From a virus, in IMG/VR virus record IMGVR_UViG_3300044546_000330, positions 1 through 64,000 of that record: a DNA stretch of 64,000 bases. One strand, given 5' to 3'. The stretch's first letter is position 1. Each line of letters starts with the position of its first letter. The notes under the pieces were generated by a model, which worked only from the letters and a program-made list of their open reading frames with translations, was not told where the DNA came from and did not search any database. Both the position numbers and the translations under genes were made by a program. Positions 5,849 through 46,817 of this stretch are shown piece after piece.

Positions 5849-5955
5849 GGTCAGGTGGCGGAATTGGTAGACGCTAAAGTGAAGTGCATTATAGTTGATA
5901 AGCGAGTGTGATATTCGGAACTTTCAACATACAGGTTCGAATCCTGTCCTGACTG
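5849..5955 (+). tRNA. tRNA-like gene with a greatly expanded anticodon arm
   Basis: The acceptor GGTCAGG (5849-5855) pairs with CCTGACT (5948-5954; one G-T pair). The D arm is GCG-GAATTGGTAGA-CGC and the T arm ACAGG-TTCGAAT-CCTGT (5931-5947). At the correct distances from both arms, AAAGT (5876-5880) pairs with ACTTT (5920-5924) as a 5-bp anticodon stem. It encloses 39 nt instead of 7. The Leu-like D arm also allows a class II reading, with an imperfect anticodon stem (loop TGAAGTG, anticodon AAG) and a very long variable arm. Either way the molecule, about 106 nt, is abnormal and lacks U33. No CCA is encoded. Confidence 0.6.
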
Positions 5956-6565: not shown

Positions 6566-6640
6566 GGACACCTAGCTCATTGGTAGAGCATCTGAACAGA
6601 AATGTTTAGAAGGTAGAGGGTTCGATTCCCTTTGTGTCCG
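6566..6640 (+). tRNA. tRNA-like gene whose anticodon arm is a GAAA-capped stem
   Basis: GGACAC (6566-6571) pairs with GTGTCC (6634-6639); the seventh acceptor pair C-T is mismatched; discriminator G6640. The D arm is GCTC-ATTGGTA-GAGC and the T arm GAGGG-TTCGATT-CCCTT (6616-6632). The anticodon arm has an 8-bp stem, TCTGAACA (6591-6598) with TGTTTAGA (6603-6610), closed by the tetraloop GAAA. With only five pairs counted the loop would be 10 nt. No frame gives a 7-nt loop with U33, so it probably cannot decode, although the outer tRNA fold is well preserved. Confidence 0.65.
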
Positions 6641-6659
6641 CTCACTAAAAGAAATACGT

Positions 6660-22803: not shown

Positions 22804-23036
22804 CAGAAGCAGCGGAGTTAGAACAGGAACTAGAACCTTTATTAATAGGTAAAGTAGTTCAGATAAAGTACACTCACTTTTCAAAAGAAGAACGGGTCGA
22901 GATAGATACAGTTAACCGTCTGGCTGTAGATATCGATACTAGACCAAACCATTATCTTATACTCTTTACAAATCAAGGTAAGAGACTTGAGATAAACCTA
23001 GACGATTTTTCAACACACATAAAAGTACTAAATTAA
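22800..23036 (+). CDS. Hypothetical protein, 78 aa
   Basis: Small acidic protein with a five-strand-like beta pattern (GKVVQIKYTHFSKEERVEID; HYLILFTNQGKRLEINL) resembling a small barrel. Overlaps the primase by 4 nt, and its stop TAA shares one base with the following ATG. No family recognised. Confidence 0.55.
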   Translation: MTEAAELEQELEPLLIGKVVQIKYTHFSKEERVEIDTVNRLAVDIDTRPNHYLILFTNQGKRLEINLDDFSTHIKVLN

Positions 23037-26000
23037 TGGCAATACTAGAACAAGGTACTTCGCAGATTAGCGGAGGCTTCGACAAGGGTATAGAAGAAGC
23101 CGGGAGAGATGTTATGCTTGACATCTTTCAAAAGAACCAATATCAGTACCCTGTAAAGAGTACTATTAGAGAGATAGTTTCTAACTGTGTAGACTCTATT
23201 AACGAGAGAGAAGTAGCTAAGAAGATACTGTCTGGCGCATCTGTAGTATCTGATTTCTTTGAAGACAGAGAAGGAGATGTATACAAAGACAGTAAGTTCG
23301 TACCTGAATACTATGACCCTAATTGGTTAAGCAATGATCCTACTACTTACATTACGTATTACGAAGGCGCTACTGCCGAACGGGATAGCATCTGTATTAA
23401 AGACTACGGAGTAGGACTTGGGGGAAGAAGGCTTGAGAAGTACTTTTCACTTTTCTTTAGCACTAAGAGGCTATCTAAACTACCTTTAGGTAAGTTTGGC
23501 CTTAACATACCGGGGCCGCTGTCAGGTAACTGACATGAAAATAAAGTGGGAGAATTGCTGGAAGTCTAAGTTAGTTTTACTATCTTTGTTTCCTAAACAC
23601 AACATACCATGCGACAAAGAAAAAGTCGAAGTAGAAAAAAGCACGATTATTTTTCAGTAATAGACACAGAGTTCAAAGCTTACATCCTGGGATGGATATA
23701 CGCTGATGGCACTCTTTTAAAACGTAACGGAAATAGACAGGCACTATTTTGCATATCAGTACAAGAAGAAGACGGTAAGGAGTTCTTACCTGAGCTTGCT
23801 AAAGTAGTAGCCGACAGAGTACCTGGGATACGATATTACGCAGCACAGAAGCTTAGAGGAGAAAAGCCACAGATGAGAGTAAGTATATCCTCCGATCAGA
23901 TATATGCTGACTTAGTACGTCATGGCTTACAGCAAAATAAAACTGCGTATGGCATGACTTACCCTACTACTTTACCTTCTGAACTAGAGCATCATTTTAT
24001 ACGTGGGTTCTTAGATGGGGACGGTAGTATCATGTACAGCCAAACTGTCTCTACTTATGTTCCAAAAACTAAGCCTAAGACAAACGTCTTAAGAGACAGG
24101 GGACGTATAGCCTTTATAGGAACTGATAAAGCGTTCTTAGAAGAGATACGAAAAAGACTTCCTATTACAAAGTGTTACTACGGGGGTAAGCAGTCCAAGA
24201 ACATGTTTACTCACGTACTTTGGGTTGAGCGTGCTTTAGATGTAAGAGCGTGTATAGCATACCTATATAAAGACGCCACATGGTTTTTGTCAAGAAAGAA
24301 AAGTAAAGCTGATAAGATAATCAGCAGCCGAGCCTTACGTGCAAGTAAGGAAGGTTCAGAGACTACCGGAGCAGTAGAGTCTGCTTAATAACCGGAAGTA
24401 GTATAGAGTAGTTTCTATATGAAACAGCACCCACCTCCGTGTGAAGACGCACGGATGATGATATAGTCCGACACTCTTGGAAACAAGAGATTACAGATTC
24501 GCGGTAATAAAGCGCCCTTATCTTTAGAGATGGGGTACTATACAGTAGAGTCAAGATACAACGGGCAACTGTACAGGTTCAATGTCTACAAAGGTAAGGT
24601 AGAATCTATCATACCTAAGTTTAACATAAAGACAGGGCAGGAGAACACTGCTCACGAGATGCCAACTCCCTCTGGCGTACCTTACATTTACTACAGCGAA
24701 GTCACTACTGAAAAGAATGGAGTATCTGTAATAGTAGAAGCCAAGAAACCGCATAAAGAACTGTACCGTGATGCAGTCCAATCTCAGTTGCTTTACTTTG
24801 ACAACATAAACTTTCAGATAATCAAAGAAGGGTATGTAGACCAAGTAGATTACAAAGCTGACATTATTTATGAGGATGAGTACCTTGTTATGTCTAACAA
24901 CTCTTATTACTCCAAACCCCATTTACTTCTTAACAGGGTAAACTATGGGTACATAAACTTTGGAGAGTTAGAGATACAGGACAAGATAGGTAACATTGGT
25001 ATCAAAGTACTGCCTGAAGACGTAGAGATTTCACCGTCTAGGGAATCTTTGGTGTGGAATGACAAGACTAAGGAGACTATTCTTAGTAGATTTAAGGCAG
25101 CGGTACAAAGTGCCACAGTACTTGTACAAGAAGAGCTCAAGGAAAAGGACTTTCTAAGATGGGTAAAGCTTTGCTATGGCATGCAAAACAGGTATTCAAG
25201 TGATAAGGCTAATGGCACTGTAGTGGAAAGACTGTCGTGTATCATAGATATGGCTTCTTTAGAACCCACTTATAATGGTACTGATATAAAGTTTAACCAT
25301 AACGTGCTAGACTTCCTACTCGTAGAGAAAGTAGAAATAATTAAGACTAAAAAAGCGAACAAAGTAAGTAACAAGGTAGACAGAAAAAGAGTTTACACTT
25401 TATACGATGCTATGAATTCCAAAGTAGTAATTTCTACCGGTAAGAGAAACAATCGTAAAGACAAGTACCTATTAAGTACTGCAGATAAGTTTGTACGAGT
25501 AAAACCCCCATATTGGTTAACAGAAGAGTCACAGTCTCTTAGTAAAGAGGAGTTACTTGAAACCATATTGGAAGGTTACGTTTCTGAATCGCACAAAGAA
25601 GAGATAAGAAAGAAGTTTAATGCTAACAACTCTGTTGAAGTATGGAACTTGCTAAAGTCTTCTATAGATGTGCTAGACTACGAAGCCATAGAAGTCCCTG
25701 ATAGCTTTGTCGCTTCGAACAATGAAGAAGATGAGGAGATCATAGAAACTGAGGAGGAGAAACAAGAAGCTGCTATGTCTAATGAGGAACGAAGAAAGTT
25801 ACACAACAAGGTAGTAATACACACTCCAAGATTTGTATCCGATTCTCGTGCACCTCAGTTTATAGAATGGCAGAAACTTGAAGTAACTGTAAAAGAGATC
25901 GAAGCCTGGGATGCTGCAGAAGTGTACTATGGTAACGACGTAGATGGCGATACTATTAAACTTGTAGCTATGTTGTCTCGTAAAGTGAACAATGAAAGTG

Positions 26001-26785
26001 ACTGTGTATGGCTTCCAAAAGGTGTTACTATTGAGGGCGATGCTAATCCGGGAGAAGAAGGCCACTACTCTGAATGGCGTAAATCAAAGTTTGACGAGTC
26101 CATCACAGCGGGCGTAGCATATAGGTGTTCTCATTTCTTTGACAATACGCAGATTAAACTGATAAAAGTTTCTCAACAGACTACTAAACTGTATAAGAAC
26201 TTTTACCACATAAACAAATTCTTTTACCGTTTAAACAGAGGTGTACTTACCATGAGCAATGTACTAATACAGTGGAATACTTCCCGCTTAATTAAACAGG
26301 ACCTTCATAAGTTGAACTTCTTATGGAACTATCCTTTCTCGCAAGAGAAGAAAGACCAGTTTAGAGAGATAGTAAAGTATGTCAAACTTAACTATAGGCC
26401 GATGGCAGGGTTTCAAGATAAAGGTGTTGCACCTGAAGCTTTAAACAACTTGACTGCACATCTTGATAAGGTACTGCAGTTTCAACTCTTTGTCAAAGAA
26501 GGGCATGCGTCAGAAGACATAGCTAAACTTGCTTCCGAAATGTGGGGCAGTGAATCTGTAGTTGACGGCCAGGCTATTGACATGGCAGTATGGGACAAGT
26601 TTAAAGCTTTGCTTGAGTGGTCAGAACCTATTAGAGTACTATTAAATGAGATGACAGCGTTAACAGGCATTGATGGTGTAGCTCTAACAGAAGTTGACCA
26701 ATACCAAGATAGACAAGAGTGCCTTATTAAAGAAGAACTTGAACACTCTCTTATTTCGTATATCAAGTCTAAGAACGTATCTTAG
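23036..26785 (+). CDS. rIIA: rIIA-like GHKL ATPase, interrupted by a group I intron
   Basis: Exons 23036-23502 and 24502-26785 join in frame to a 916-residue protein. Exon 1 has the GHKL N box (REIVSNCVDSI, Glu46/Asn50) and G1 box (KDYGVGL, Asp123). The junction restores the G2 box as GKFGLGNKAP. Without splicing, translation stops at 23533. The downstream part resembles the long, less conserved body of T4 rIIA (membrane-associated protein that, with rIIB, affects host range and exclusion), with an acidic linker (EEDEEIIETEEEKQE) near the middle. The rIIB-like gene follows 15 nt after. The family call rests on the GHKL motifs, size and partner. Confidence 0.8.
23581..23588 (+). promoter_or_regulatory. 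TATCTTTG box before the intron endonuclease gene
   Basis: A perfect TAnnTTTG element lies 20 nt before ATG 23609, inside the intron and downstream of P4. A TTG is 23 nt upstream. It suggests that the homing endonuclease gene has its own promoter, independent of splicing of the host gene transcript. Confidence 0.45.
23609..24388 (+). CDS. LAGLIDADG homing endonuclease encoded in the intron
   Basis: The 259-residue product has two LAGLIDADG helices, YILGWIYADGT (about residues 25-35) and HFIRGFLDGDGSI (about 129-141), so it should act as a monomer that cuts intronless rIIA-like alleles and drives intron homing. The catalytic Asp is present in both motifs. The N terminus is very basic (RQRKSRSRKK). 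The reading frame runs through the intron's Q (P4 3' strand) and R (P7 5' strand) elements and stops at 24388, so RNA-folding and protein-coding constraints overlap. Confidence 0.92.
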   Translation: MRQRKSRSRKKHDYFSVIDTEFKAYILGWIYADGTLLKRNGNRQALFCISVQEEDGKEFLPELAKVVADRVPGIRYYAAQKLRGEKPQMRVSISSDQIYADLVRHGLQQNKTAYGMTYPTTLPSELEHHFIRGFLDGDGSIMYSQTVSTYVPKTKPKTNVLRDRGRIAFIGTDKAFLEEIRKRLPITKCYYGGKQSKNMFTHVLWVERALDVRACIAYLYKDATWFLSRKKSKADKIISSRALRASKEGSETTGAVESA

Positions 26786-26800
26786 CATAAAATCTCAAAC

Positions 26801-27985
26801 ATGATGATTATAGTAAACAACATCAACAACGAAAGAATTGTTGGTACAGCATCAGGAGAAGCTTTCTCAGTTACTTACTCTGAAAAGAAGTATAACTTAA
26901 TGAAAGAACTCCAAAACAAAGCAGAGGACGCTACTACTGTAGACGAACTTAAAGCTATCTTAGAAGAGTTTACACCTCTTACTAAAGAAAGCTATAAGGA
27001 AATCATAGAGCAAGCCTGTCCTTATGTAGTGTGTAACCCTCACACTAATAAGTTCTATCTGAAGTACAATGGAGTAGTGTCAAGCCGACCTATGCCAAAC
27101 GAGTTTGCAGAAAGACTTGTTAAGTCCGCAGAAAAGGGAATTGATTTCATGCCTTACGTGTACATGTGGGTCCGTTATTTAAGAGAAGCTGAAGGCCGAC
27201 CGGCTTACAGTTTACAAAGAGCTAACGACTTTGCCAAGTATGTAACGGCTACCTTTTGTAATCCTAGAACAGTAACACAACTTATGGACGACTTTGGCCT
27301 GTCAAGAGAAGCTGCTGTCAAACAAGCAACTCTACCACAAGTTTCAGTTACGAAAGAAGGTCTATTGTGTACCTTTAAAGTTAGTACTGAGATTCGTCAC
27401 AGATATGACTTGAACGAGGACGAAGAAGTAGTTGTAAAAAGTAGGTACAAGAAGAGTGTTGATCCTGATACAGGAGAAGTAACTTTTACTGAGCCAGACT
27501 TTGCTGAAGACTTATTGTTTGAACCTGCTGTAATGGGCGAAAGAGGAGATGCTTTTAACTGTGTCTCTATTAATGGCGCCTTTAACAAGAAAGGTCACCA
27601 CATCCGCGTAGGCTGTCGTCACTTCTTGGATAGCTGGGATCAAGTAGGTCCTCCTATGGGTCCTGGTTTACACGTTGGTAACCTGGATTACATTGGAACG
27701 TACCAAACTGACCAGACTGTTACTCATAACGTATTTGTAGACCCTGCTCATATCCATACTGTGAATCCTAACGGGCATGGAGACGGTGCTTTGACTTGTA
27801 TTGAGTACTTTGTTCACAGTTCCTTTAAGGGGCAGAACAAAACTCTGTATAACTCGTCAGAGTATGCTAAGTTCCACGATGAAGAGTACGTAAAGTACTT
27901 GAATGAAGTGGTAAAAGCTTCTGCTATGAAGAAGGAGGAAGTTGATCAGTTTGAGTCTGAAGCCAAATCTCTGATTAAAGCCTAG
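26801..27985 (+). CDS. rIIB: rIIB-like protein
   Basis: The 394-residue product has the C-terminal signature of T4 rIIB-like proteins: GPGLHVGNLDYI followed by NVFVDPAHIHTV (about residues 288-320), preceded by a CRHFLDSWDQVG segment. The N-terminal part contains an FCNPRTVTQLMDDFGLSREA helix-turn-helix-like stretch. In T4 rIIB acts together with rIIA at the membrane. Here it follows the rIIA-like gene after 15 nt, supporting the pairing. A strong terminator ends the unit. Confidence 0.75.
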   Translation: MMIIVNNINNERIVGTASGEAFSVTYSEKKYNLMKELQNKAEDATTVDELKAILEEFTPLTKESYKEIIEQACPYVVCNPHTNKFYLKYNGVVSSRPMPNEFAERLVKSAEKGIDFMPYVYMWVRYLREAEGRPAYSLQRANDFAKYVTATFCNPRTVTQLMDDFGLSREAAVKQATLPQVSVTKEGLLCTFKVSTEIRHRYDLNEDEEVVVKSRYKKSVDPDTGEVTFTEPDFAEDLLFEPAVMGERGDAFNCVSINGAFNKKGHHIRVGCRHFLDSWDQVGPPMGPGLHVGNLDYIGTYQTDQTVTHNVFVDPAHIHTVNPNGHGDGALTCIEYFVHSSFKGQNKTLYNSSEYAKFHDEEYVKYLNEVVKASAMKKEEVDQFESEAKSLIKA

Positions 27986-32675: not shown

Positions 32676-35600
32676 TTATCTAACTGCTGAACTAAGGTCA
32701 GTAGTTGCATACTGGTTTAGTTTATTTACATTGTTCACTATAGGCAGGGCTTTTGTAGTCTTGAGAACAGCTTTGTCCCAATGGTATCCTTCATCTGTAG
32801 AAAACTTGTACCAAGCTTTAGGCACAGCAAGTGCATCTCTTACTACGGACCATGAAGGTACTGGGTTACCAGTCAACTGGTCAAACACATCCGGGCTAGA
32901 GTAGATAGCAAGATCCTGGTAAGTTCTATACAGCATGTTTATAGTCATACGTTGTATAGCTGTGTGATCTTTCCCTAGTCGTCTTCTCTTCTTCATCTCT
33001 TCGTCGTCTGGTAAAGCAGCTTTAAGTAAATAGTACGAAGCAAGTATAAAAGCAGTGTAAGCCATACCTGCTAAGTTTCTTCTCATGTTCTCTTTCTCAT
33101 GTTCTTGCAAGTCTACTAGTTGCCTTTCTCCGTCTACAGTTCTCCATATCTGGCCACTGTCTAACGGATTTGTTCCAGTCATTACACTGAAAGCTTGTTG
33201 CAATAACATAGGTACTCCAAGACCAGGCATACGTAACATAGTTCTGTATCTACCTTCTACGTTTCTTTCTAGTACCTCACTGTATCCTTGATCACTGCCC
33301 CATCTAGTCTTAATACCTTCTGGTATCCAGCTAGCTTTAAACTGACCAAGTAGTCTACCAAACATGTCCTCTTTAATATGCTGAGGCATAAACTTGTCCT
33401 GCGCTCCAAAGATTATGACCTGTATCATTCTAGCTCTTAGAGTAAACTTGTTCCATTCTGTTTGTTCGCTCCTGTTATCTTGAGAAGACCACGCTTTGTT
33501 CTCGCCATACTTGGCAGCGTCCCATTCTCCGTTCTCATTTAAAGCGTCGAACAAACGAATAGTTTTCTCTTCGCCATCTACAAGTACTTTTATAGGTACA
33601 TTAAGAGTACGGGCAATAATACACGAACCTTTAGTAAGAAAGTCACCTGACTTCTGCGCTGCAAAAGGATGGAAGAACTGAGCGGTGTTTGACTTCTCTT
33701 CTACTAGGTTTGTTTTACCGTAAGCAGTGTCTATTAATGCCTCGATAGAACCAACTCTCTGTATAATTGCTGCACATTTCTTAGCAACGTCTCCACCTTC
33801 GTACCCAAACGCTTTTAACCAAGACCTAGACACATTACCTTTCATCATCTTGAAAGCTAGTTTAAGGTGCTCTACTGCAAAGTCTCCGTTACCTTTAGTA
33901 AAGCCATCTTCTCCAACTCTAAAACCTCTGGCATGTATCATTGCGGCCATGTAACCGTAAGTAAAGTTAGACACAGCTGAGAGAGGATTATAAGACATAG
34001 ACTTAAGTTGTTGCAAACCTATTGTAACGTCTGCTATTTTAGAAGCAGCAATGTACCTAGCCTTTGATCTTATCTCTTCTACTCTGTTCTCTACCATTTC
34101 CAACTCTTTTACAAGTGGGTGATTAGGATTATCGTAAGGGTTTACACCAGTGTTTGCATGCTCATCTAGTATTTTACTTCGAAGAACTGGGACTCTTTTA
34201 ACAAGTTCAGCAAGTTCTCTAGTAAGTTTTTTGTTCTCTCTGACGTTTGCACTGTACACCGGCGTAGTACCGACTCCTTGTACTTCCGTAGGCTTTTGGT
34301 ATACCAGCATATCTTGATAGTACTCCATCAAGCTTAACAAGTTAGTCAATCCTTTCTTACCATCCTTTAGTCTCTCATTGTTTTCCTCTTTAACTAAACG
34401 AGTGATAACGTCTCCTACTTCTTTTACAGGGTACATGTTCTTGTAGTGTATAGCCATGTTACCAAACATCTCAAAGATACGAGGTAAGTCATGACTAATC
34501 TCTTCAGTAAGTACTCTGCCTTTTACTTTGTTTCCGGCCGCATCAATAGTCTCTTCCCTTGGGGCAGCACCGGCGTACTTAACCTTAAGTTTAGAACCGC
34601 GTACTTTGTCCATCTGGTCTTTAGTAACAGATAGTTTTTCAAGCGCCTTTTGCCCTACTGCTGACGTCTTAAAGTTAGACAAGAAGTTAGAAGCTGCTGC
34701 CATCTGATCTATACCTACTATAGGCAAGAAGTTTTCGTGTAAACTCTCCGCTAGTGTGGCCGGTAAATAGTCTCTAAACTTTTGAGACAATTCGGTTAGT
34801 ATATCATAAGCTTCAGACAGGTTATTGTTGGCCCTTATCTTTTCGTACTTACTATCTAAGTTAGATGCTAGTCTTTTAGGGGCAAACCAAGCTTTGAATC
34901 TTCCGTTGTGCGCGTATACTCTTTCTTCTTTTTGAGACGTAGATGGTTCTGTGTTTAAGAAACTAACCGGAGAGTTTCTACTTTCCCAACTAATCTTTTG
35001 TCTAGCTTTCTCGTTTTCTATTCTTGTCTTAACGTGATTAGCCATGTACACAAGTTGTTCATCTGGCGTCATGTTTGCCCAGTTTATCTGGTCTTCAGCG
35101 GATAAAGTAGCAGGATCAAAAGCTGCCATAGCAGGGTCTGTTTCTACTCCTGCTTCTAACTCTTCGAACTTTATCTCTCTTATCTCTAAGTACTTTTTGT
35201 AGTCCTTTTGAGCTTTTTCTATTACCTTCTTAGTAGATTCTTCTACAGTCTTAGAATAGAAATCTGCCAACACTGCTTGAGCTTCTGCGTCTGTTCTTAG
35301 TTCCCCTGTAGCTAAGTCAAGTATCTTGTCGATAGGAACTGCTATGCCTGTCTTGTTACTTTCTTTCCAGTACTTCTTAAATGCGCGTTCTGCAAGTTTC
35401 CTTTTACGTCTTACATTGTCTGGCGTATCAGTAGGCATACTTTGTAGTTCGCTAAGTCTGTGTCTTAAGTACCCTCTATTACTAGCTAATGCTTGATACC
35501 AGTCAGGGTGCAATTCTTGTACAAGTCCAAACACAGTGTTGGCATCGTTAGTCTGAATGAACTGTGCGTAAGCTTTCTCGTCTGGTACAAGTTCTTTAAA

Positions 35601-38600
35601 CCTCTTGAGTATACTTACCAAGTCACGCTTTTCAGCCTCTGCAGTCTGTACATGGTACTGAGTAAACGTAGTGTACATCTGCATTAACTTGTTAGCATCT
35701 CTCTCTAAGTAGATCAATTGATCTTGAAGTATGTGTATCTCCTTAAGATTAAAACCAAGGTCAGCCGGGGTAAGTTCTATGTTTGTAACTTCTTTACCTG
35801 TCGCTATTACAGTGTGCATACCTTGCTGTACCATTCTATTGGTGAGTTCTCTGGCTATACCTTCTATTGAAGAAGTGGCAAGTTTAAAGTCTTCGTTAGT
35901 AGTATCAAACCCAGTTTTGTAAATCTCTGATAAAGAGTTCCAAGTATCTAGTACTTCCCAAGCGACATTCACTTCAGACATGTGCAGGTTACCTTTAGTC
36001 AATCTATTCTTTACCCACTGTATCTGTTTGTTACCTATCTCTATTACCTTCTCAAGGTCATTGGATTCTTTAAGTTGATCGTAGTCATCCTTTACTTCGT
36101 GGTACTGTAGTTTTGCTTCTGCTTGACGTTGTCTATCTTCATCTGTTCTAGCGGGTCTATCTATTGCACCTTCCATAACTTGTAGAGTTCTATACATGTT
36201 CTCAAGTACTTTGTCCACATAGTCAGTACGTATAGACTTAGCCTCGGCGCCGACAGTCAATATTAAGTGAGTACCTTTGTCTTCTACAGAAACGTCTTTA
36301 GATTGTGTAGTACCTATGATGTCCTTCATGTGGCTAGCTTCTTGTTCTGTAAAGAAGAGCATAGCAGGGGGTGCAAACAAATCATCAAGAGTAGTAGTTA
36401 TTCTTTCTAGCGCTCGTTCGTTGTGGTCTTGTAAAGAAGATAAGTCATAGCTTAGCGCGACTGCTTCTTTCAGTATACTAGTACTATTGTACTGTACACC
36501 CTTTGCCTCAAGGGCTTTTACTACCTCTGCAAAGAAAGAAGTTACAGCGTCTAAAAGCTTCTCTATCCAGTTTTCTGCTTTGTTTGTAGACTCTATGCTG
36601 TTAAGAAACTGCATAAGGTCTTCTTGAGTAAGCACTTGGACTACAAACTCTTCCATACTTGAAAGACTGTACATCAACCTGATGTTAACGTCGTCCGGCA
36701 AAGAGCTCTTATTCTCTTTTAACAAGTTGGACCATTCTTCAAACTTTCCAGGTTGGGCAATTTCCATCTCTGCTTTAAGTTTAGCTAAAGCTTGTTGACG
36801 AAGCTTGTCTAACTCTATAGCTTTTCTATAAAGGTCAGGGTGCTTGGCGATAAACGCTTGAGCACTTGCTTGGTACTCAGCAAATAACTTATCTGACTCT
36901 GCCTTTGATGCATTAGGGTTATCTTTACTATACTTTGACCACCATAAGTCCTTGTTTAACCATCCCATACTTCTTAAGAACCCTACAGATCTTGTGTGTA
37001 AGTTCTCGTGTACAGTTGTTTCAGCAGCTAACTTTATGTCCTTAGTAGGTTTAAGATTTAAAGTATTAGTCTGTAAGAAAAAGTTACCACTAGACCCTAT
37101 AGGGCTAGTAGGACTATAGCTAAATGGTTGGGCAGTGTTTACTCCAAGAAACTGTCTGCCTTCAAGTTCTTCAGCTGATACTGTTGACTCTGCAAGACTT
37201 TGAGCAAGCATTCTTAAGTAGCTAGGTACTAGAGGATCTGTAGACAGAAGTTCTAATCCTCTGTTCATAATCTCTTCACCACCTTCTATATGCAAGTTCC
37301 AGCGGGACAGTGCGTTATTAGGGTCACTACCTTCACGTATTCTCTTTTCGACTTCAGAGTCTAACTGCCTTTCAAAAGTAGCTTCTTTAAACTTATACCC
37401 TGCTCTGTTCTCTGGGAACACTGATCGATTTATTTCGTGCACTTTAGAGTCATACTCTACATGATTATCTTGCCCTAAGGTGTCAACGCGTTGATAAGTA
37501 ACTGTACCTCCCGCTTCTCTTAGCCTGTAAAGTATAGTACGCCCTTCTTGTTTAGACCTGTAACTAATGTACTTAGTGTACTCTTGCTCGCCGTCTCCAG
37601 GTACAACTTGTAAGTTTGCATTTTGTCCATACTTAAATACTATTATCTCAGGGTAATCTCTACCTGTGACCTCATACTGGGCCCAAGAATCTTTAAACAC
37701 AGCAGAGTCTACTTTGATAGCTAGTTTAGGCATGTGCTGATACAGCTGATCTATAAACCCAGCAGGCACTTTACCAGTTGCTTGTAGCATTTCATAGGAA
37801 AGCCTTAGGTTTACACTTATATCAGTACCTAATAAAACTCCTGAAGGTAACTTACTAGCCAAAGAAGTTGAACTAGCCTGAGGAGTAAGTAGCATAGTAT
37901 ACGTTATTAAGTCTTCTCCTAGTTGTCTTTCTACTTCATTACTTGATTGTATGAGAGCAGCAAAATCTTCTATTACTTGGTTGTCTGTTGCACGTATAGA
38001 CTTTTCATTGTGGACAGTTATAAAGTCGGGCCCTTTTCCTACTATTGCAATATCAGTAGAAATACGGTTTATAAGACTGTTAGTCTTGTTCTCTTTCATG
38101 TACTCGGCCACTCTAACTGCTAAGGACTTATTTGTCTCGGTATTGTAGAGTAGTCTTAACCTTTCAGCAGTACTGTTCATAGCTATTGCAGGTGAGGTAG
38201 AGATTAAGAAAGACCTAAAATTCCTAAGGACTTCTAGTTGTACTTTCAAAGGTAACTCACTCATTACTTTACCTTGTTGCATTGCCACTTGTGACATTAG
38301 ACTAGATATAGCATCTACCGGGAATACGGAAGCTAGTAAATTCTTGGCAATAGGAATAGTCATCTGGTACATCTGTTCCAGCTGGTGCTCGGGCTCAGTT
38401 AAATAGTGTTCCCCTATAAAGATCTTGCCCATAGTTGTGTGGCCAAGCTTTTCATGATTCTCTTCTTGCTGAAGTAAGTAGACTAGGTTAGGCCCTGCTC
38501 CATTAGTGTCTTGGTTTAAAGTCTTTTGAAGTTGTCTAATACGTTCTCCTATTTCCAACAACCTTTCAAACTTTTTCAAAACCGCTAACTGTCTTGTGTA

Positions 38601-41600
38601 GTAAAGACTGTCCTTAGCTTCTTCTTTTAAAGAAGTATTAAACGCTGCTACAAGCATCCTCTCATCTACGTTTGTAGTTGCTATTTCCTTTACCAAGTCT
38701 TCATCACTATTCTTTTCTTTCTTTTCAAGAGCACTAGCAGCTTTCCACTTTGCTGTGTAGTCTCTAGCTAGTCCTTCTATAATAGTAGCTTGTAGATTAG
38801 CATTGTACTCTTCACTCAAGGAGTCATTTCCTTTTCTATACTCTCTAGTGTAATCGTTTAAGATCTCTTGTACAGATAATGCTGTTTGAAAGTTTTTACT
38901 TAAACCCAGGTTTGGCTCTTTCTCCTTAACCTGGTGTATCATATTCATAGCAACAAAGGCAGGATAAGTAGCCAAAGTAATATTTAAGTTATCTAGATCT
39001 CTGTTGTTAGCATTATCTACGGCGCCTGACTGATCTATGGTAATGTTATCGTGTTTTGAGTACCAAGTAGACATGTCATCAGTAGAGTCTTCTCCTCTTG
39101 AGATTGCTTCTCCCGCTAAGTGAGAAAGTCTAAGACCGTTTAATTCTAGCGGTCTAGGGTTTTCATGCACCATACCTTCTTTATCTGTATAGTAGTTTCC
39201 TAACTTTATTTCTCGTCCTTGCGTAGCAAACTTTTGTAAGTTAGCTTCTTGGGTTGAAGCTAAGGAAGTAGCGCCCACCAAAGACTTAGCATCTTTTGCA
39301 GATTGGAAAGTTTTTAATTGAGTGATAGCAGAAAAGTAAGTATGTGCCCCTGTAACTCCGCGAGCAAACTTCTTGTTAGCTTTAGCCAAGTCAGTCTTAT
39401 CCAACTTAGAAAAAACTTTAGCGTACATATCCTTGTGGGTAAGTATTCCCCAGTGGATATTAAAGTAATCCTTTTGTAAAGTGTCTGTTGTTTCTTTTTC
39501 CCCACTTGTCACTTCCATGAACGAGTTAGTCTCTGGGTTATGCCAGTAAGGTCTTTGATAAGTGTACAACTTATCCACGTCAAAGTCAGATCCCATCTGT
39601 CCTGTAATGGCTCCAGGTACTATCATCAGATCTCCCATCCATTCAGGAGTAAAACCTACTATCTCAATAGGTATCATAGAGTTGTGGCCCTGATTAGGGA
39701 TACGCGCGCCTACAAGTTGTAATAGTTCCTTAGGTACACGGGCCATGTCCAACTGGTTAGTACCTTCTATAAGGTAATCAGATACTTTCTGTTTAACGCC
39801 GTTGATGTGAAAGTTAAAAGGAGCTATGACTTGGGCCGGCAACACGTTACCATTCTCGTCCTTAGACATGTGTCTTAGAGGTTCATCAAGATTGTAGTCT
39901 CCTATTGTCACTATTCCTTTACGGTCTGCAGCTGAAAGACTTGCTAGTCTTCGCATACCTATACTAGAAGCCTGTACATAAGACTTACCAGGCATCTTAA
40001 ACTCCGTTACTTTCTTCACTTGAGCAAGTAATAACTTCTCAAATCTTTCTACTGCGCTATGAAAGAATAGCGGGTAAGCCATGTAATCTTTCTGTACTTC
40101 AACAGGGTTGCCCTTACTGTCAATCTTTGTTTCAGTTTCAGAGAGTATACCTTCTAGCAAAGCTATATCGTTAGGAGGAAACTCTCCTGCACGGGCAGCG
40201 TCTACTAGAAGTTCTATTACTTTCTTAGGTTCAATTTGTTCTGTTGCGTTTTTAATTCCAAGTTTAGAGTACAAGTCTTTAAGGTTTCTAGTAGCCATAG
40301 CTATTCGAATAGCTTCTTTACGTTGTCTTACTTCTTGCCCTGAATAAGTTTTACCAGAATCGTCGATAGTAAAGTTTGACATCTCTAATATTCCTTCTAC
40401 TATTAACTTGTCCATCTGAGTAACTACACCGATCTTAGTCTTGCTTTCATCGTACGGAACCTCTTGCTGAATACGGAAGTTTGCTCTGTCCAGTTGTCTT
40501 GTACTTCTAACTAAGGCGTCTTTGTCAGGCGAAACAAACTTGTTGTCCTCGTCAAAAAGTTTAACAAGTTTTGGATTATTACCCAGTTTACTACCTGATT
40601 TAAAAGAACATCTTTGGTACAATTCTTTTCCGTCAGTAGTCTCGTGCCCTGGAAGTTTACCTTCCATTAGTAATCTTAGCTTGTCTAGTTCCGTATCTTT
40701 TGTGTACTCTTTAAACAAAGGAAAAGACATAGTCTTAAGATAGTCATAAAAGATTAAACCATTTTCATAACGTGCCCCAGCGTATACCGGCTTCATAGCA
40801 CCCATAGGTTCGATCATCTGTTGCAATTGCTCGTCACTAAAGTCTCCGTCTTTGTCTAAGACTTCTATAAGTTCGTTGTATAGTTTTTCTTCTATTTTTC
40901 CAGCCTTATACATTACATTTAAGTGCTCTCTTACAGTTGTTAACTCTTGGGCATCTGTAGCTTCTGAAGACTGTACATTACTACCAAACTTAGCTGCGTA
41001 CCCATAAGTCATTGTCACGTCAGTAATAGTTAGGTGAGAGTACAAAGGATTTTCAAACTCTAGTTGTTGTCCCGGAGCAATGTCTTTTGCTAGACGTTTA
41101 GAATAGAAAGCCAAAGTCTTTTCTTCATTACCCTTCCATGCATTAGCTGGGTCTCCCATAAACATAACTACTGAAGAGGCGTTCCATAGTACTGAATTAA
41201 GAGCGTACTCATACGCAGTTCTTCTAAGTATTTCCTCGTTCTTAGTCTTTCCCTTTAGGTCTTTGTAGTTCTTTTTCTGGTACTTGGTATCTATAAGAGT
41301 ATGATCAATACCGTTGTCCTTAAAGTACTGCACAGCTTCGTCACCTATTTGTGTAAGGTACTCGGCTATTCTTTCTTTTACAAAGCTTTGTACGCCGGCA
41401 TCTAAAGAAGAAGCAACATTGCCTTGCTCGTCAAAAAGAAACATACTATTTTTACCTAAAGACTCTTTGTTTAAAGTAGGGAATAGTATAAAGCGTTCAC
41501 CTCCATCGTCCATTGCTTCTGAACCTGCAGTACCTTGATTTCTTTTTAACTCTTGTACTCTCTTAATACGAAGCCATTCTCCCTCGAACAGAGTGTACAC

Positions 41601-44600
41601 TGCGTTTACTATCTCAGGGGTTAGGTTACCATCTTTCCCTATAGCTTGTACTCTAGGTATGTTGCTAAAGACAGGAGTTGTAGTCTTATCTGAGTGGGCC
41701 ATAGAGATCATGTGCATCAACTTGTGACCCTGGTTTGTAAACATGTTTACTGCTACCAGTAGTTGTTCACGGTCAGACATGTTAGGACGTACTCTACCAA
41801 GTAAAGCATTGTCCATGTTCAGCCCTTCCAAGTAAGACAGGTTAAACTTATTGACATCTAGTTTGCCCATGTAATAAGTACCGCCCCACACACTTTCCTG
41901 TATAGATGTAAAGACTCCGTCTTTGTTAGTCTTAAAAGAACTTACTATGTTAGACAAAGCGCTCGGGTACGAGTAGTCCCAGTTCTGTTTACCCTCTATA
42001 GTAGTGTGTACTGAGTTAAATAGCTTCTCACTATACCTTGATGTAAAACTTGCAAGAACTCCCATAGTCTTTTCTTCTAAGTAGATAGGGTTATTTTCTT
42101 TTACTAAGTTCTCCAACTCTTCTGTTACACTCTCATCTAACTCAGCCCCGTAAGTAACGCCGGCCGCTCTGTTAAAGAAGGCAGAGAATATACCGTTAGA
42201 CTTACCGTTTGTAGTATTAGTAAACTGGCCAAGCCAGTCTGTACTCATTTCCTTATGAGCCATTGACGAAGTAATAAAGTCTACTCTTTGACCATTCTTG
42301 TAATAGTACCCAGCCATGTCATTAAGTACAGGCGTGGACAACTGTATCCCGTGGGCAGCGAACATTCTTTTTAACAGAGCTTTTTGTGTAGCACGTTGTT
42401 GATCTCTTGGAACTCTTGCCTCGCTTGTTTCTTCTTTTATAAGAGCGTCTACTAGATTAATCTGTGCTTCAGGGGATGTATTACCTATAAACAATCTTGC
42501 TGCAGGGTTAGAGATTGCTAAGTCGTTTAAGTACAAGTGTAGCTTTACTGTTAAGTCAAGTACTTCGTTAGGGTTTCTAAAGTCTACTCGTTGGAATAGT
42601 TGCATCATATTAATTACCCCAAGATGATGACGAGCTTGTTCTACGTCAAGTACCTTTTCCCCTGTCTCTCTAACCTTTATCATAGGAGAGACCATCTGTG
42701 CATCTGTCCAAGCTTTTACAATAGTTTGATTCTGTGAATATCGTTGTGCGTTTATGACGCGAGTAGTAAGAAAGTCTTTTCCTCCGTCTGATCCTGAGTC
42801 TGCTCTTAGTACTAGGAATTTGTTATACTGCATACGCATAACCTTAATAAACTCTTTTTGGTTTCGAACGCTAGTCTTTTCTAATCTGTCAGCAAACTCT
42901 TCTAAGTTGGCATCTCTTTGAGAACGTAGAATTGCCAACGCTTCTTCCATACGTAAGTTAGGGATGTCAGCTAAAAGGCCTTGTACATTTTCGTACATAG
43001 TGTCAAACTGAATAAGAGTAGGAATACCAAACTGAGTTTTAGCTGGCAATCGTTTCATCTTACTTCTTAAGGCTGCTTCAAGTTCTGGACCTGTGTACTC
43101 ACTGTGGTACACTACCTTGTTGTTCATCTGCCTAGCCTGTGCAACTGTAAGTGTATCAGGATTGATGTGAGAAATGTCCATTGCGTCAGGCAAGATAGAC
43201 ATGTCTGCCAACTTGTTAACTCCTATGATGTCAAAGTGCTCACGTTCTCCTTGCCCTGCCATAAAGATTTTAAGACGTGCAGTAGCTGAGGATTTGCTAT
43301 TCTTTTCAAAGGAACTATCTTGCCACCCTTTTACAACTTCAGTACGTGTATCCTCTACATTAAACTGAACGTCATCTAAGTTATCTGAGATGTAGTCCTG
43401 TATTTCTTTTTCGTAATCTGTACTCTCCTCAATATTGATTGTCATACCTTCATCTACTTTAACAAAGGTTGGATCTGTTTTCTTAAGGTTGAAGTAAGTC
43501 TTTAGTTTGCTTCGATCAGCAATGTCTATCTTGTACCCAAGTACTGCAAGGTTTTCTAGTACTGAATCAATGAAGGATAACTTGGGGTCAGTGCCATTAA
43601 AAGCAAACGAGTTTACAACGTCTTTCCACATATTACCCATTTCAGTGTTCTCTAAAGCCATACGCTTAGATTCTTTGAGTAACTGTCCGAACAAGTGAGG
43701 TACAGAAATGTTACCGTTTGCCTGATTGTACATTAGATAGAACGTACTAGTAAGTGCGTTAATTAAACCAAGCTGAGCTTCTTTACCGTGCTTCTTGGCA
43801 AAGTAGTCTTCTACTTTACCGTTTTGATCAGTTATACAGATTTCCATCTTAGCACTCATCTTTGCCATCTCAGTTTGATCCAGTCTCCAGGCAAGTCTTG
43901 AATTCTTAAACTCATTTATCTTATCTGTAAAGACCATCAATAGTCTTTCTGTGTTGTTGTTCATCTCAAACAAGAAAGCCGGTGGTAGTTTTAAGTTAGG
44001 AGGAAAGTCATCTCCCATCTTAGTACGAAGATCATCTAGCATTTGAGCGTACTCAGAAGGTTTGATACCTCTTGAGTCTGGCCAATTGTTTACTCGTGGG
44101 TTTTCCCAAGGCACAGTAAAGAGTTGATCAGGTTCGGCAACTGCTGCAGCTACTATCTCTCTTTCTAAAAGTTCTCTTGCTTCCTTTATGTTTTCGTTGG
44201 TAAGGTTCTTTCTGCTTATAGGGTTAGGTGCCTCAGGCATTCTGAGCATAGTTATGCCTGGAACTGCTGTGGATGTTTGAACGGGTTTACTTTCTGCAGT
44301 ACTTTGTAGAGTATTCTGGTATATGTCTCTTATGGCTTGCACAGATTCTGGCGTCATAGTACCGTTATCTTGCCTACTACCTATACCTGCAAAGTTCTTA
44401 TGAAGTGTTGGTACACCTGTTTGTTCGAATGTAGTACCATTCCACTTGTACCATTCATTTGTTTTAGTGTCAAAGACTACAACTTCTTTTCCGTTGGCTA
44501 TCCCCATCTCAACAGCGTAACCAGTTCCACCATCTACAGTAGTACGTACAGCTTTAGAAGTATACCCTTTACTGTTTTTTTCCCCAGGTTGAATAAGTGG

Positions 44601-46817
44601 GGCTATAGCGACTACTTGTGTACTGTTTTTAACTTGATACCAGTTTCGTCCAAGTAAGTTTGCAAACTTGTCGTTCCAAGGTCTACCAAGTACTTTAGCA
44701 GCTGCCTTAGCGTGTACTACTCCTTCAGCAAGTTGAGCATCCGTAAGTTGTACGTTTCCACCGGGTGTTTTAGCATTGGCCCAGTAGTGGTTATGATTTG
44801 TAAAGCCAAACTCTCTCCCTATTGTGTCCCACATCATGTCAGCTCCAATGGCCCCGCCTGAATGGTTTGTAAACTGTGTAGGGTCTACCTTAATTCTTTC
44901 CGGAGTACTAATAGTAGGTATCTCAACAAGCTCTGTTAAGTACTCTATAAGGTCTTGCACAATCTTTAGTTGGTTTGCCTTTAAAGATGCTTGGTTAATA
45001 CTTTTAAAGTTTTTTAGTTGTTCTTCTCTACTTTTTTTTACCCAGTATTTATCATAGGTTACAGGCAGTTCCGCAGTATAGATACTGTCTATAACTTCTT
45101 CCAACTTAGCAACTCTTGTGCTGTCAGGGGACTGTGCACCAGCGTCTAGTGCAAGTGCTCCTTTACCGACAAACTCTTTAAATCCTTCTATATCTTGTTG
45201 AGTTCCTAGTATGTGCGTTTGCTCACTGTCTTTAACTGAGTAGATTTTCTCTCCACTCATTATTTCATTTACGTAGCCATCCCCGCCTTCAAAGCCTTCC
45301 TTTAAGTTTTTTATATTAAGTAGTACAGAGTGTAAGTATTTACCGTACTGAGTATTACCTGGTGTTTTAGAAAAGTCAAATACTCCTCCAGTTTCCTTGT
45401 TTAATCTATTATTATCAAAGTTATCAAACTGTATGTCACTTCTATGATAAACAATATCCTTTATTTGACTATCAGGAAATATAGTATCTAAGTATTGAGA
45501 ATACTCTTCTTGTGTACCAATAGAAGCTAGTTCAGGATTAGACTCAAACAGTTCTGTTACTCCTGGTTTAAGCGGGGCTTTTAGTAAGTTACTTTTAACC
45601 CACTCATAAGTAGGCTCTTGCCCCAAAGTATCCACAGGTATAGAATCTATTATTTCCTGGTAAGATTTGGAGGCTTCAGCATTCTCTTTAAAAGTTTCCA
45701 AAATTTCGGCAGCTACAAAGAAAGCTTGATTGTAAAGTGTAGGGTCTGATTTAGTTATATCTAAAGCAGCTAAAATACTGTCTATGATCTCTTCAAGTAA
45801 ATTTGAGTACTTTACAGAATCCAAAGGAGGTAGAGTGCTGAGTAATTGTATGAACTCTGCATCTGTGTACAAGGCCACAAAAAACTCGTCTATGTTAAGC
45901 AGTGCATAGGCTTCAGGCAATACAGACTTGGCATGTTCAAACAGTTTAGTAAAAGACTTGTTTGTTTCCGTATTACTTCTTAGTTGGTTATGAGATATGG
46001 CATGTAAGATTTCATGTATAATAGTAGGCTCGGAACCCCTCCCTCTGAAAGATGCACCTTCTTTTATTTCTATTCGATTCTCTAAAGGTATAAAGACTGC
46101 AGCAGGATTGTTTATTAAGGTTGAGGTTTCTATAGTTTGCACAAGACTTACTCTCACATTGTTTAAAGCGACAAAAGGAATAAGCTTTTCTGCTACTTTA
46201 GAAAGTGGATGATTGCTTTCAACTATCTTTGTCAGTACGGATACACTGTCTGTTTCGTCACCTTCGTTAAAGTACTTCGCTCTTAGGGCAGTGTCAAAAG
46301 TATTGTAACCTTCGTGGGCTTCGTTAAACAGCTTACCCGTTTCTTCGGCAAGTTCTATTTCATGTGCTTGTTCGTCCGGAGTTAACTCCTTCCACATCTT
46401 ATCAAAGTTTGCTGCGTAGTTTAAGTCGAGGGTAGACTTATCAGATAGTTTAGGTTTCTTTACATATACTACAAACCTGTTTTCTGCAAGTTGGAACGGC
46501 TTGTTTACAAAGTCTTTTCCGTGCTCTCTTACTTGTCTTTCATAGACTAATTGAGCTTCTGCCAAGTTATTACGTTCAAACTTTCCTCTAGTTCTTTCCC
46601 AAAGGTTTACAGCTCTTGTATAAGCTACTTTGTCGTCAGATCCAAAAGTAGCTGCCAGTGCTCCGCCCGTAACAAAGTCTCCGTGCTTGGTAGCAAACTC
46701 ATCAGAATAGATATGAGACATTACCCGGTCTCTTATTTCTTGACCATGATTTTCTAGTAATAAGTCAGCAAGTACAGACTTTTTTCCATTGTAAGACGTA
46801 TAGCAGTTTGAACTCAT
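32676..46817 (-). CDS. Giant virion polyprotein with crAss-like RNA polymerase
   Basis: At 4713 residues this is the largest gene. The RNA polymerase active site is GSDFDVDKL (metal-binding Asp2411, Asp2413, Asp2415), preceded by RIPNQGHNSM at 2372. This matches the single-chain, QDE-1-like virion polymerases of crAss-like phages, which are injected and transcribe early genes. Other parts are a zincin motif HEILH (268-272), an ADP-ribosyltransferase-like polyvalent domain starting VYHRS (near 456) and a SLOG-type nucleotide-binding domain (HSGGAIGAD near 650 to AGIGSRQDNG near 830). A second zincin-like HENLH lies at 3270-3274, followed by long coiled-coil regions and a membrane helix (4585-4602). 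Probably packaged as cargo and possibly processed. Confidence 0.88.
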   Translation of the reverse strand: MSSNCYTSYNGKKSVLADLLLENHGQEIRDRVMSHIYSDEFATKHGDFVTGGALAATFGSDDKVAYTRAVNLWERTRGKFERNNLAEAQLVYERQVREHGKDFVNKPFQLAENRFVVYVKKPKLSDKSTLDLNYAANFDKMWKELTPDEQAHEIELAEETGKLFNEAHEGYNTFDTALRAKYFNEGDETDSVSVLTKIVESNHPLSKVAEKLIPFVALNNVRVSLVQTIETSTLINNPAAVFIPLENRIEIKEGASFRGRGSEPTIIHEILHAISHNQLRSNTETNKSFTKLFEHAKSVLPEAYALLNIDEFFVALYTDAEFIQLLSTLPPLDSVKYSNLLEEIIDSILAALDITKSDPTLYNQAFFVAAEILETFKENAEASKSYQEIIDSIPVDTLGQEPTYEWVKSNLLKAPLKPGVTELFESNPELASIGTQEEYSQYLDTIFPDSQIKDIVYHRSDIQFDNFDNNRLNKETGGVFDFSKTPGNTQYGKYLHSVLLNIKNLKEGFEGGDGYVNEIMSGEKIYSVKDSEQTHILGTQQDIEGFKEFVGKGALALDAGAQSPDSTRVAKLEEVIDSIYTAELPVTYDKYWVKKSREEQLKNFKSINQASLKANQLKIVQDLIEYLTELVEIPTISTPERIKVDPTQFTNHSGGAIGADMMWDTIGREFGFTNHNHYWANAKTPGGNVQLTDAQLAEGVVHAKAAAKVLGRPWNDKFANLLGRNWYQVKNSTQVVAIAPLIQPGEKNSKGYTSKAVRTTVDGGTGYAVEMGIANGKEVVVFDTKTNEWYKWNGTTFEQTGVPTLHKNFAGIGSRQDNGTMTPESVQAIRDIYQNTLQSTAESKPVQTSTAVPGITMLRMPEAPNPISRKNLTNENIKEARELLEREIVAAAVAEPDQLFTVPWENPRVNNWPDSRGIKPSEYAQMLDDLRTKMGDDFPPNLKLPPAFLFEMNNNTERLLMVFTDKINEFKNSRLAWRLDQTEMAKMSAKMEICITDQNGKVEDYFAKKHGKEAQLGLINALTSTFYLMYNQANGNISVPHLFGQLLKESKRMALENTEMGNMWKDVVNSFAFNGTDPKLSFIDSVLENLAVLGYKIDIADRSKLKTYFNLKKTDPTFVKVDEGMTINIEESTDYEKEIQDYISDNLDDVQFNVEDTRTEVVKGWQDSSFEKNSKSSATARLKIFMAGQGEREHFDIIGVNKLADMSILPDAMDISHINPDTLTVAQARQMNNKVVYHSEYTGPELEAALRSKMKRLPAKTQFGIPTLIQFDTMYENVQGLLADIPNLRMEEALAILRSQRDANLEEFADRLEKTSVRNQKEFIKVMRMQYNKFLVLRADSGSDGGKDFLTTRVINAQRYSQNQTIVKAWTDAQMVSPMIKVRETGEKVLDVEQARHHLGVINMMQLFQRVDFRNPNEVLDLTVKLHLYLNDLAISNPAARLFIGNTSPEAQINLVDALIKEETSEARVPRDQQRATQKALLKRMFAAHGIQLSTPVLNDMAGYYYKNGQRVDFITSSMAHKEMSTDWLGQFTNTTNGKSNGIFSAFFNRAAGVTYGAELDESVTEELENLVKENNPIYLEEKTMGVLASFTSRYSEKLFNSVHTTIEGKQNWDYSYPSALSNIVSSFKTNKDGVFTSIQESVWGGTYYMGKLDVNKFNLSYLEGLNMDNALLGRVRPNMSDREQLLVAVNMFTNQGHKLMHMISMAHSDKTTTPVFSNIPRVQAIGKDGNLTPEIVNAVYTLFEGEWLRIKRVQELKRNQGTAGSEAMDDGGERFILFPTLNKESLGKNSMFLFDEQGNVASSLDAGVQSFVKERIAEYLTQIGDEAVQYFKDNGIDHTLIDTKYQKKNYKDLKGKTKNEEILRRTAYEYALNSVLWNASSVVMFMGDPANAWKGNEEKTLAFYSKRLAKDIAPGQQLEFENPLYSHLTITDVTMTYGYAAKFGSNVQSSEATDAQELTTVREHLNVMYKAGKIEEKLYNELIEVLDKDGDFSDEQLQQMIEPMGAMKPVYAGARYENGLIFYDYLKTMSFPLFKEYTKDTELDKLRLLMEGKLPGHETTDGKELYQRCSFKSGSKLGNNPKLVKLFDEDNKFVSPDKDALVRSTRQLDRANFRIQQEVPYDESKTKIGVVTQMDKLIVEGILEMSNFTIDDSGKTYSGQEVRQRKEAIRIAMATRNLKDLYSKLGIKNATEQIEPKKVIELLVDAARAGEFPPNDIALLEGILSETETKIDSKGNPVEVQKDYMAYPLFFHSAVERFEKLLLAQVKKVTEFKMPGKSYVQASSIGMRRLASLSAADRKGIVTIGDYNLDEPLRHMSKDENGNVLPAQVIAPFNFHINGVKQKVSDYLIEGTNQLDMARVPKELLQLVGARIPNQGHNSMIPIEIVGFTPEWMGDLMIVPGAITGQMGSDFDVDKLYTYQRPYWHNPETNSFMEVTSGEKETTDTLQKDYFNIHWGILTHKDMYAKVFSKLDKTDLAKANKKFARGVTGAHTYFSAITQLKTFQSAKDAKSLVGATSLASTQEANLQKFATQGREIKLGNYYTDKEGMVHENPRPLELNGLRLSHLAGEAISRGEDSTDDMSTWYSKHDNITIDQSGAVDNANNRDLDNLNITLATYPAFVAMNMIHQVKEKEPNLGLSKNFQTALSVQEILNDYTREYRKGNDSLSEEYNANLQATIIEGLARDYTAKWKAASALEKKEKNSDEDLVKEIATTNVDERMLVAAFNTSLKEEAKDSLYYTRQLAVLKKFERLLEIGERIRQLQKTLNQDTNGAGPNLVYLLQQEENHEKLGHTTMGKIFIGEHYLTEPEHQLEQMYQMTIPIAKNLLASVFPVDAISSLMSQVAMQQGKVMSELPLKVQLEVLRNFRSFLISTSPAIAMNSTAERLRLLYNTETNKSLAVRVAEYMKENKTNSLINRISTDIAIVGKGPDFITVHNEKSIRATDNQVIEDFAALIQSSNEVERQLGEDLITYTMLLTPQASSTSLASKLPSGVLLGTDISVNLRLSYEMLQATGKVPAGFIDQLYQHMPKLAIKVDSAVFKDSWAQYEVTGRDYPEIIVFKYGQNANLQVVPGDGEQEYTKYISYRSKQEGRTILYRLREAGGTVTYQRVDTLGQDNHVEYDSKVHEINRSVFPENRAGYKFKEATFERQLDSEVEKRIREGSDPNNALSRWNLHIEGGEEIMNRGLELLSTDPLVPSYLRMLAQSLAESTVSAEELEGRQFLGVNTAQPFSYSPTSPIGSSGNFFLQTNTLNLKPTKDIKLAAETTVHENLHTRSVGFLRSMGWLNKDLWWSKYSKDNPNASKAESDKLFAEYQASAQAFIAKHPDLYRKAIELDKLRQQALAKLKAEMEIAQPGKFEEWSNLLKENKSSLPDDVNIRLMYSLSSMEEFVVQVLTQEDLMQFLNSIESTNKAENWIEKLLDAVTSFFAEVVKALEAKGVQYNSTSILKEAVALSYDLSSLQDHNERALERITTTLDDLFAPPAMLFFTEQEASHMKDIIGTTQSKDVSVEDKGTHLILTVGAEAKSIRTDYVDKVLENMYRTLQVMEGAIDRPARTDEDRQRQAEAKLQYHEVKDDYDQLKESNDLEKVIEIGNKQIQWVKNRLTKGNLHMSEVNVAWEVLDTWNSLSEIYKTGFDTTNEDFKLATSSIEGIARELTNRMVQQGMHTVIATGKEVTNIELTPADLGFNLKEIHILQDQLIYLERDANKLMQMYTTFTQYHVQTAEAEKRDLVSILKRFKELVPDEKAYAQFIQTNDANTVFGLVQELHPDWYQALASNRGYLRHRLSELQSMPTDTPDNVRRKRKLAERAFKKYWKESNKTGIAVPIDKILDLATGELRTDAEAQAVLADFYSKTVEESTKKVIEKAQKDYKKYLEIREIKFEELEAGVETDPAMAAFDPATLSAEDQINWANMTPDEQLVYMANHVKTRIENEKARQKISWESRNSPVSFLNTEPSTSQKEERVYAHNGRFKAWFAPKRLASNLDSKYEKIRANNNLSEAYDILTELSQKFRDYLPATLAESLHENFLPIVGIDQMAAASNFLSNFKTSAVGQKALEKLSVTKDQMDKVRGSKLKVKYAGAAPREETIDAAGNKVKGRVLTEEISHDLPRIFEMFGNMAIHYKNMYPVKEVGDVITRLVKEENNERLKDGKKGLTNLLSLMEYYQDMLVYQKPTEVQGVGTTPVYSANVRENKKLTRELAELVKRVPVLRSKILDEHANTGVNPYDNPNHPLVKELEMVENRVEEIRSKARYIAASKIADVTIGLQQLKSMSYNPLSAVSNFTYGYMAAMIHARGFRVGEDGFTKGNGDFAVEHLKLAFKMMKGNVSRSWLKAFGYEGGDVAKKCAAIIQRVGSIEALIDTAYGKTNLVEEKSNTAQFFHPFAAQKSGDFLTKGSCIIARTLNVPIKVLVDGEEKTIRLFDALNENGEWDAAKYGENKAWSSQDNRSEQTEWNKFTLRARMIQVIIFGAQDKFMPQHIKEDMFGRLLGQFKASWIPEGIKTRWGSDQGYSEVLERNVEGRYRTMLRMPGLGVPMLLQQAFSVMTGTNPLDSGQIWRTVDGERQLVDLQEHEKENMRRNLAGMAYTAFILASYYLLKAALPDDEEMKKRRRLGKDHTAIQRMTINMLYRTYQDLAIYSSPDVFDQLTGNPVPSWSVVRDALAVPKAWYKFSTDEGYHWDKAVLKTTKALPIVNNVNKLNQYATTDLSSAVR

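Follow-up and report, generated by a model that had tools for sequence, protein, structure and literature searches.

Phage introns usually target genes for polymerases, reductases and terminases (PMC3984707). The introns of T4 td, nrdB and nrdD, of phage 25 gene 43 and of other phages are of group I and sit in conserved protein-coding genes, several of them with homing endonucleases (PMC2993671, PMC3984707). The Delta and Zeta crAss-like phages, the same broad host group as the virus studied here, carry many introns, including group I introns with endonucleases (PMC7886860); the paper makes no mention of RIIA. In the crAss-like phage cr116_1 (NC_055882, Pamirivirus faecium, Steigviridae), a group I intron (RF00028, 80.8 bits) with a LAGLIDADG-type endonuclease splits rIIA at its ATP lid; the record labels the rIIA pieces 'RIIA lysis inhibitor' and 'VOG4594', and the open frame between them 'endonuclease; intron-encoded'. 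Here we describe an element likewise placed in a 64,000-nt window, positions 1–64,000 of the 75,340-base virus record IMGVR_UViG_3300044546_000330. We read it, with a probability of roughly 0.94, as a mobile IA-type group I intron that carries its own LAGLIDADG endonuclease and interrupts a GHKL ATPase gene of the RIIA family at codon 156, within the G-x-F-G-x-G motif. The features of the locus are as follows.

23036–23502, plus strand: rIIA-like gene, exon 1, 155 codons and 2 nt, ending GGT AAG TTT GGC CT, aligned to intronless relatives
23503–24501, plus strand: 999-nt group I intron of type IA, ending in omega-G, from the RF00028 match, alignment and splice-site pairing
23498–23517, plus strand: P1, exon GGCCU (23498–23502) with guide GGGCC (23513–23517), U-G at the splice site
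23508–23512, plus strand: P10 strand UACCG, partner of exon 2 CGGUA (24502–24506)
23520–23535, plus strand: P2 hairpin UGUCAG-GUAA-CUGACA, from the fold
23546–23574, plus strand: 5' strands of P3 (GUGGG, 23546–23550), P4 (UUGCUG, from 23555) and P5 (GUCU, from 23564), with covariation in P3 and P4
23609–24388, plus strand: LAGLIDADG homing endonuclease gene, 259 aa, in the P5 loop, with both catalytic motifs (LGWIYADG and IRGFLDGDGS), its 3' end overlapping P4 to P7.1
24315–24365, plus strand: 3' strands of P5 and P4, P6, P6a and the 5' strand of P7 (GACUA, 24361–24365), from the Rfam match and fold
24366–24419, plus strand: P7.1, P7.1a and P7.2, extra elements of IA introns, from the fold
24430–24489, plus strand: 3' strand of P3, P8, 3' strand of P7 (UAGUC) and P9, from the Rfam match and fold
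24502–26785, plus strand: rIIA-like gene, exon 2, beginning C GGT AAT AAA GCG CCC, aligned to intronless relatives

Joining the exons at 23502/24502 yields an open frame of 916 codons and a 916-aa product, in which the lid reads LGKFGLGNKAPLS / LGKFGLGNKAPLSLE and the motif GKFGLGNKAPLS is brought back, as the initial annotation had claimed for the GHKL glycine box. Among protein families, the joined product hits phrog_612, 'RIIA lysis inhibitor' (E 8.3e-19), as well as four more RIIA families; its PF13589 match (E 0.00086) lies below the curated cut-off. A four-protein profile of the RIIA-like family found Hsp90/TRAP1/HtpG and topoisomerase VI-B structures in the PDB (best E 3.3e-8), with the lid aligned onto TRAP1 GQFGVG, and the N, D and G boxes of GHKL ATPases are all present. 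These matches identify the host gene as a member of the RIIA family of GHKL ATPases, with predicted ATP hydrolysis and a predicted role in lysis inhibition or exclusion, in keeping with its earlier description as rIIA-like.

Full-length intronless relatives, which the initial annotation had proposed to look for, were found by tblastn (L076, L091 and L060, each 44% identical, and L068, 39%; L numbers are our locus handles). They are colinear with the joined gene across the junction and thereby confirm it, and their lids read GKFGIGAKAPLS or GKFGLGNKSPLS. The earlier placement of the splice sites to the base thus holds, by frame, by these relatives and by the terminal nucleotides: the last base of exon 1 is U and that of the intron is G. 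Moving either site by 1–2 bases in the window costs the open frame, the U or the terminal G, and such alternatives were rejected. Among introns extracted from rIIA genes, given a frame-preserving joint, the final G is present in 16 of 16.

The group I assignment rests on the Rfam match, the core fold and covariation. RF00028 aligns to 24227–24490 (cmscan; 47.6 bits, E 9.7e-11), and the window sequence forms P2, P3, P4, P5, P6, P6a, P7, P7.1, P7.1a, P7.2, P8 and P9, among them the P4, P7, P8 and P9 elements noticed at the outset. P1 has the 5 bp first described, or 6 counting one more U-G, and P10 measures 5 bp rather than the 4 bp first given. Since endonucleases inserted in P5 split the core, so that Rfam misses most relatives, we aligned the two core halves directly across introns. 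In 12 homologous introns with the endonuclease taken out, and with a structure of 62 pairs defined on the window sequence, 91.0% of cells at the core pairs were paired, against 33–49% in slid controls, and both-sided changes occurred in 34 of the 62 pairs, against 3–11 in the controls; none of 500 shuffles reached the observed values. Kinship among the sequences inflates the covariation counts, and the slid controls therefore carry most weight. P3, P4, P6, P6a, P7, P7.1, P7.1a and P9 pair in all 12 sequences. A chance origin of the group I fold is excluded, as the paired cells lie far above the slid controls and no shuffle was as good. P7.1, P7.1a and P7.2 fold and covary between the 5' strand of P7 and the 3' strand of P3, and their presence places the intron in class IA by the scheme in PMC3984707 and by the known features of that class. 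Two weak RF00028 matches elsewhere in the same genome (40591–40757 and 29838–30113) are far below cut-off and were taken as chance.

The endonuclease in the P5 loop matches phrog_4645 (E 7.5e-34) and PF14528 (22.8 bits, cut-off 22.5), and both of its LAGLIDADG helices carry the acidic residues of the catalytic site. This gene, absent from the initial annotation, adds mobility to the intron through predicted cleavage and homing. LAGLIDADG endonucleases are typical of inteins too. An intein or other in-frame insertion would share this enzyme, yet the insert is out of frame with the exons, the reading frame from exon 1 meeting a stop at 23533 about 10 codons inside the intron; it contains a covarying RNA core, and a domain search of the window proteins found no splicing (Hint) domain, so we give an intein almost no credence.

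The element could also be a decayed intron with a dead ribozyme, leaving rIIA as a split pseudogene or as two separate proteins. Exon 2 does form a 751-aa open reading frame (ORF) of its own from an ATG at 24530 (24530–26785 in the ORF list). Against decay, all core helices pair in the window and P1 and P10 match the present exons; the 916 codons are open across both exons with conserved ATPase motifs kept, and the endonuclease motifs are intact. As two proteins, the product of exon 1 would be without the lid, and that of exon 2 without the N and D boxes that bind ATP. We consider decay quite improbable. The intron is real and probably active; its splicing, with ribozyme catalysis, and the endonuclease cleavage and homing are inferred.

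Several points weigh against the reading as an active mobile intron. The RF00028 score falls 2.4 bits short of the gathering cut-off of 50, which we attribute to the endonuclease gene in P5: it separates the 5' half of the core from the rest by about 750 nt, and the Rfam match covers the 3' half alone. P5 (31 of 48 cells) and P2 (38 of 69) pair weakly across the 12 introns, and overlap of the endonuclease ORF with the 3' core may constrain folding or translation. The junction rests on intronless relatives 40–46% identical to the joined gene, or 39–46% in a multiple alignment that includes others besides those named above, and none exceeds 60%. The activity itself is read from sequence.

In the mechanism that we propose, P1 and P10 of the folded RNA core would hold the two exons while an external guanosine attacks after U23502 and the exon so released attacks in its turn after G24501. 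The joined mRNA would give the intact ATPase; without splicing, translation would end at 23533 and the product would have no ATP lid. The endonuclease, made from unspliced RNA, would cut intronless rIIA at the lid codons, and repair would copy the intron in. The lid is presumed necessary for ATP binding, which would make the target hard to lose, and we propose that this is why several intron lineages lie at the same few bases.

Such introns recur in other phages. Among named phages, a DNA search for distant similarity matched cr116_1 (76.9%) and Cellulophaga phi14:2 (74.0%) at the 3' core; in phi14:2 the intron sits in a DNA polymerase gene. A sequence pattern built from these two 3' cores and run on viral contigs matched L008 and L009, both rIIA-lid introns, and a looser pattern then matched introns in two DNA polymerase genes, one of family A (L013) and one of family B (L014). 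Introns with almost the 3' core of the window, these two among them, lie in conserved motifs of family A and family B DNA polymerase genes of other phages (L013 12154–12940, L014 around 11570 and L003 3001–3171).

A profile scan of viral contigs for rIIA, with patterns upstream of the lid, gave 80 loci, in which broken genes in the surveyed region were broken only at the lid (L016, from the L009 virus; L032, from the L008 virus; L069–L071; and L075), and the remaining short genes were cut by contig ends. Scanning the same contigs with the endonuclease pair of the window and L075 gave 32 loci. Each of the 18 relatives of at least 37% identity adjoins a first rIIA exon that breaks off at the lid, and in 16 cases exon 2 is present too; more distant relatives are located elsewhere. 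Several of the 18 are near-identical or come from one contig, which leaves about 12 distinct viruses. Single-protein scans of viral contigs with the joined rIIA, the endonuclease or the DnaB-like protein gave no match, and the multi-relative profiles did; in an Rfam e-value scan of the relatives only L009 matched (83.4 bits).

Beyond this endonuclease clade, rIIA-lid introns were found in one more virus, with a GIY-YIG endonuclease, and in one lineage of three contigs with a short, endonuclease-free insert (L070 3848–4109). This 262-nt intron has a core unlike the others and received no RF00028 score from Rfam; we read its class from P1, P10 and a GCAUA/UAUGC P7. A natural empty allele is given by L015, which is 91.3% identical over 5.8 kb to the joined exons of L009, gapless at the junction and with only synonymous changes in the lid. 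This shows directly that the L009-type insert, related to that of the window, is an exact removable intron.

It is possible that such introns are kept for the benefit of the phage, the endonuclease cutting the rIIA of competitors or splicing timing RIIA production, which would be compatible with a mobile intron. A PhiPA3 intron endonuclease is reported to interfere with a co-infecting phage (PMC11620839), and several intron lineages have colonised the same lid. A purely selfish element would also be expected to recur at a conserved site, though, and most relatives in the rIIA scan are intronless; we regard the idea as unlikely.

The exact insertion sites differ. With the lid numbered G1 x2 F3 G4 L5 G6, the split falls after base 1 of codon 3 in cr116_1 and L008, between codons 4 and 5 in L070 and the L075 group, after base 1 of codon 5 in L009, L096 and L111, and after base 2 of codon 5 in the window. 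No lid intron lies further than about 7 nt from the GxFGxG codons, and in every one compared exon 1 ends in U. In every host with a short guide, P1 and P10 track the differing exon sequence, the P10 pairs being UACCG/CGGUA in the window, CUAG/CUAG in L075, GAUCUA/UAGGUC in L096 and UCCAAU/AUUGGA in L070; cr116_1, L008 and L009 have a longer-range guide, and the P1 reading is weaker there. A common site for the window and cr116_1 was rejected, as the U and omega-G rules put the two 7 nt apart. Within the lineage of the window, the splice site occurs in all three phases beside one leucine codon (GGU/CUA, GGG U/UA and GGC CU/C, the stroke marking the site).

In the endonuclease tree, the window, L096, L111 and the L075 group form one clade apart from cr116_1 and L008, whereas in the rIIA tree the window, L096 and L111 lie far from the L075 group. 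The endonucleases of L096 and L111 are 49–50% identical to that of L075, against 28–29% for the N-terminal parts of rIIA; between the two deep rIIA clades, the values are 41–50% for the endonuclease and 28–32% for the host genes. Slower evolution in a homing enzyme than in a conserved ATPase would be unusual, and transfer of the endonuclease and intron between distantly related phages is therefore the likelier reading, with the branch of the window a long one. On balance we favour the rIIA lid as a true intron hot spot, invaded by at least four lineages (two LAGLIDADG clades, one GIY-YIG and one short), one of which would have shifted its site with the U, P1 and P10 re-matched; transfer is suggested.

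Other insertions were seen near these genes. L099 carries a second insertion of about 1.2 kb (around 1740–2960) in the same rIIA gene, at a conserved NRES motif and with a group I-like 3' end (GATGATATAGTC), which may mark a second intron site in rIIA. In two related phages, LAGLIDADG endonuclease genes (L084 7209–8048 and L057 6979–7851) appear to break the gene after rIIA, a relative of window 26801–27985; they were rejected as rIIA introns, since rIIA is intact and the endonuclease lies at the next gene downstream.

The virus itself is most probably a phage of the crAss-like type, or one related to that order, given a 4713-aa protein (window 32676–46817, minus strand) whose catalytic part has a DFDVDKL motif and matches giant proteins from crAss-like phages of Flavobacterium, Cellulophaga and Bacteroides (32.5%, E 1e-43). 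This protein is likely a crAss-like virion RNA polymerase. Elsewhere the window has a predicted tRNA at 1425–1500 with anticodon UUA (a UAA reader) and G at position 33, a 107-nt tRNA-like gene at 5849–5955 (RF00005, 38.5 bits) missed by ARAGORN, and a tRNA-like gene at 6566–6641 with an uncertain 4-base anticodon reading. UAA recoding is not evident in the window, as 16 of the 29 long genes checked still stop at this codon.

The gene rIIA is reportedly among those in which Benzer mapped gene fine structure. The initial annotation had called it an unusual intron host; the literature that we searched contained no paper describing introns in rIIA, a search that covered few subscription papers, so that an earlier report is possible, while the recurrence in cr116_1 and further viral contigs makes the host less exceptional. 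As a mobile group I intron the element is thus of an ordinary kind, and it occupies a site, in a little-noticed host gene, that introns have invaded repeatedly. Its counterparts add rIIA to the list of phage intron targets and explain the piecemeal annotation of the gene in some crAss-like phages. With empty alleles, three splice phases and several endonuclease families at one site, they form a natural set on which to test the way in which homing introns choose conserved active-site codons and then track them.

Compared with known systems, the window intron has its orthologues in IMGVR_UViG_3300030047_000014 (L075/L102) and the clade L095–L111, which share the lid, the core and an endonuclease in P5 (37–47% identical); their splice site is 1–2 nt earlier (GGU/CUA or GGG U/UA versus CU/C), and the host rIIA is 28–42% identical over the N-terminal part. 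The cr116_1 intron has a very similar 3' core, but its site lies 7 nt upstream (GGG U/UU GGC; best joint GGT GGG T/TT GGC, giving GGFGIGKYS), and its endonuclease, of a different clade and 26% identical, precedes P3 instead of lying in P5. The introns of T4 td, nrdB and nrdD, of phage 25 gene 43 and of other phages differ in occupying host genes other than rIIA, and those of the T-even phages carry GIY-YIG or HNH endonucleases (PMC2993671, PMC3984707).
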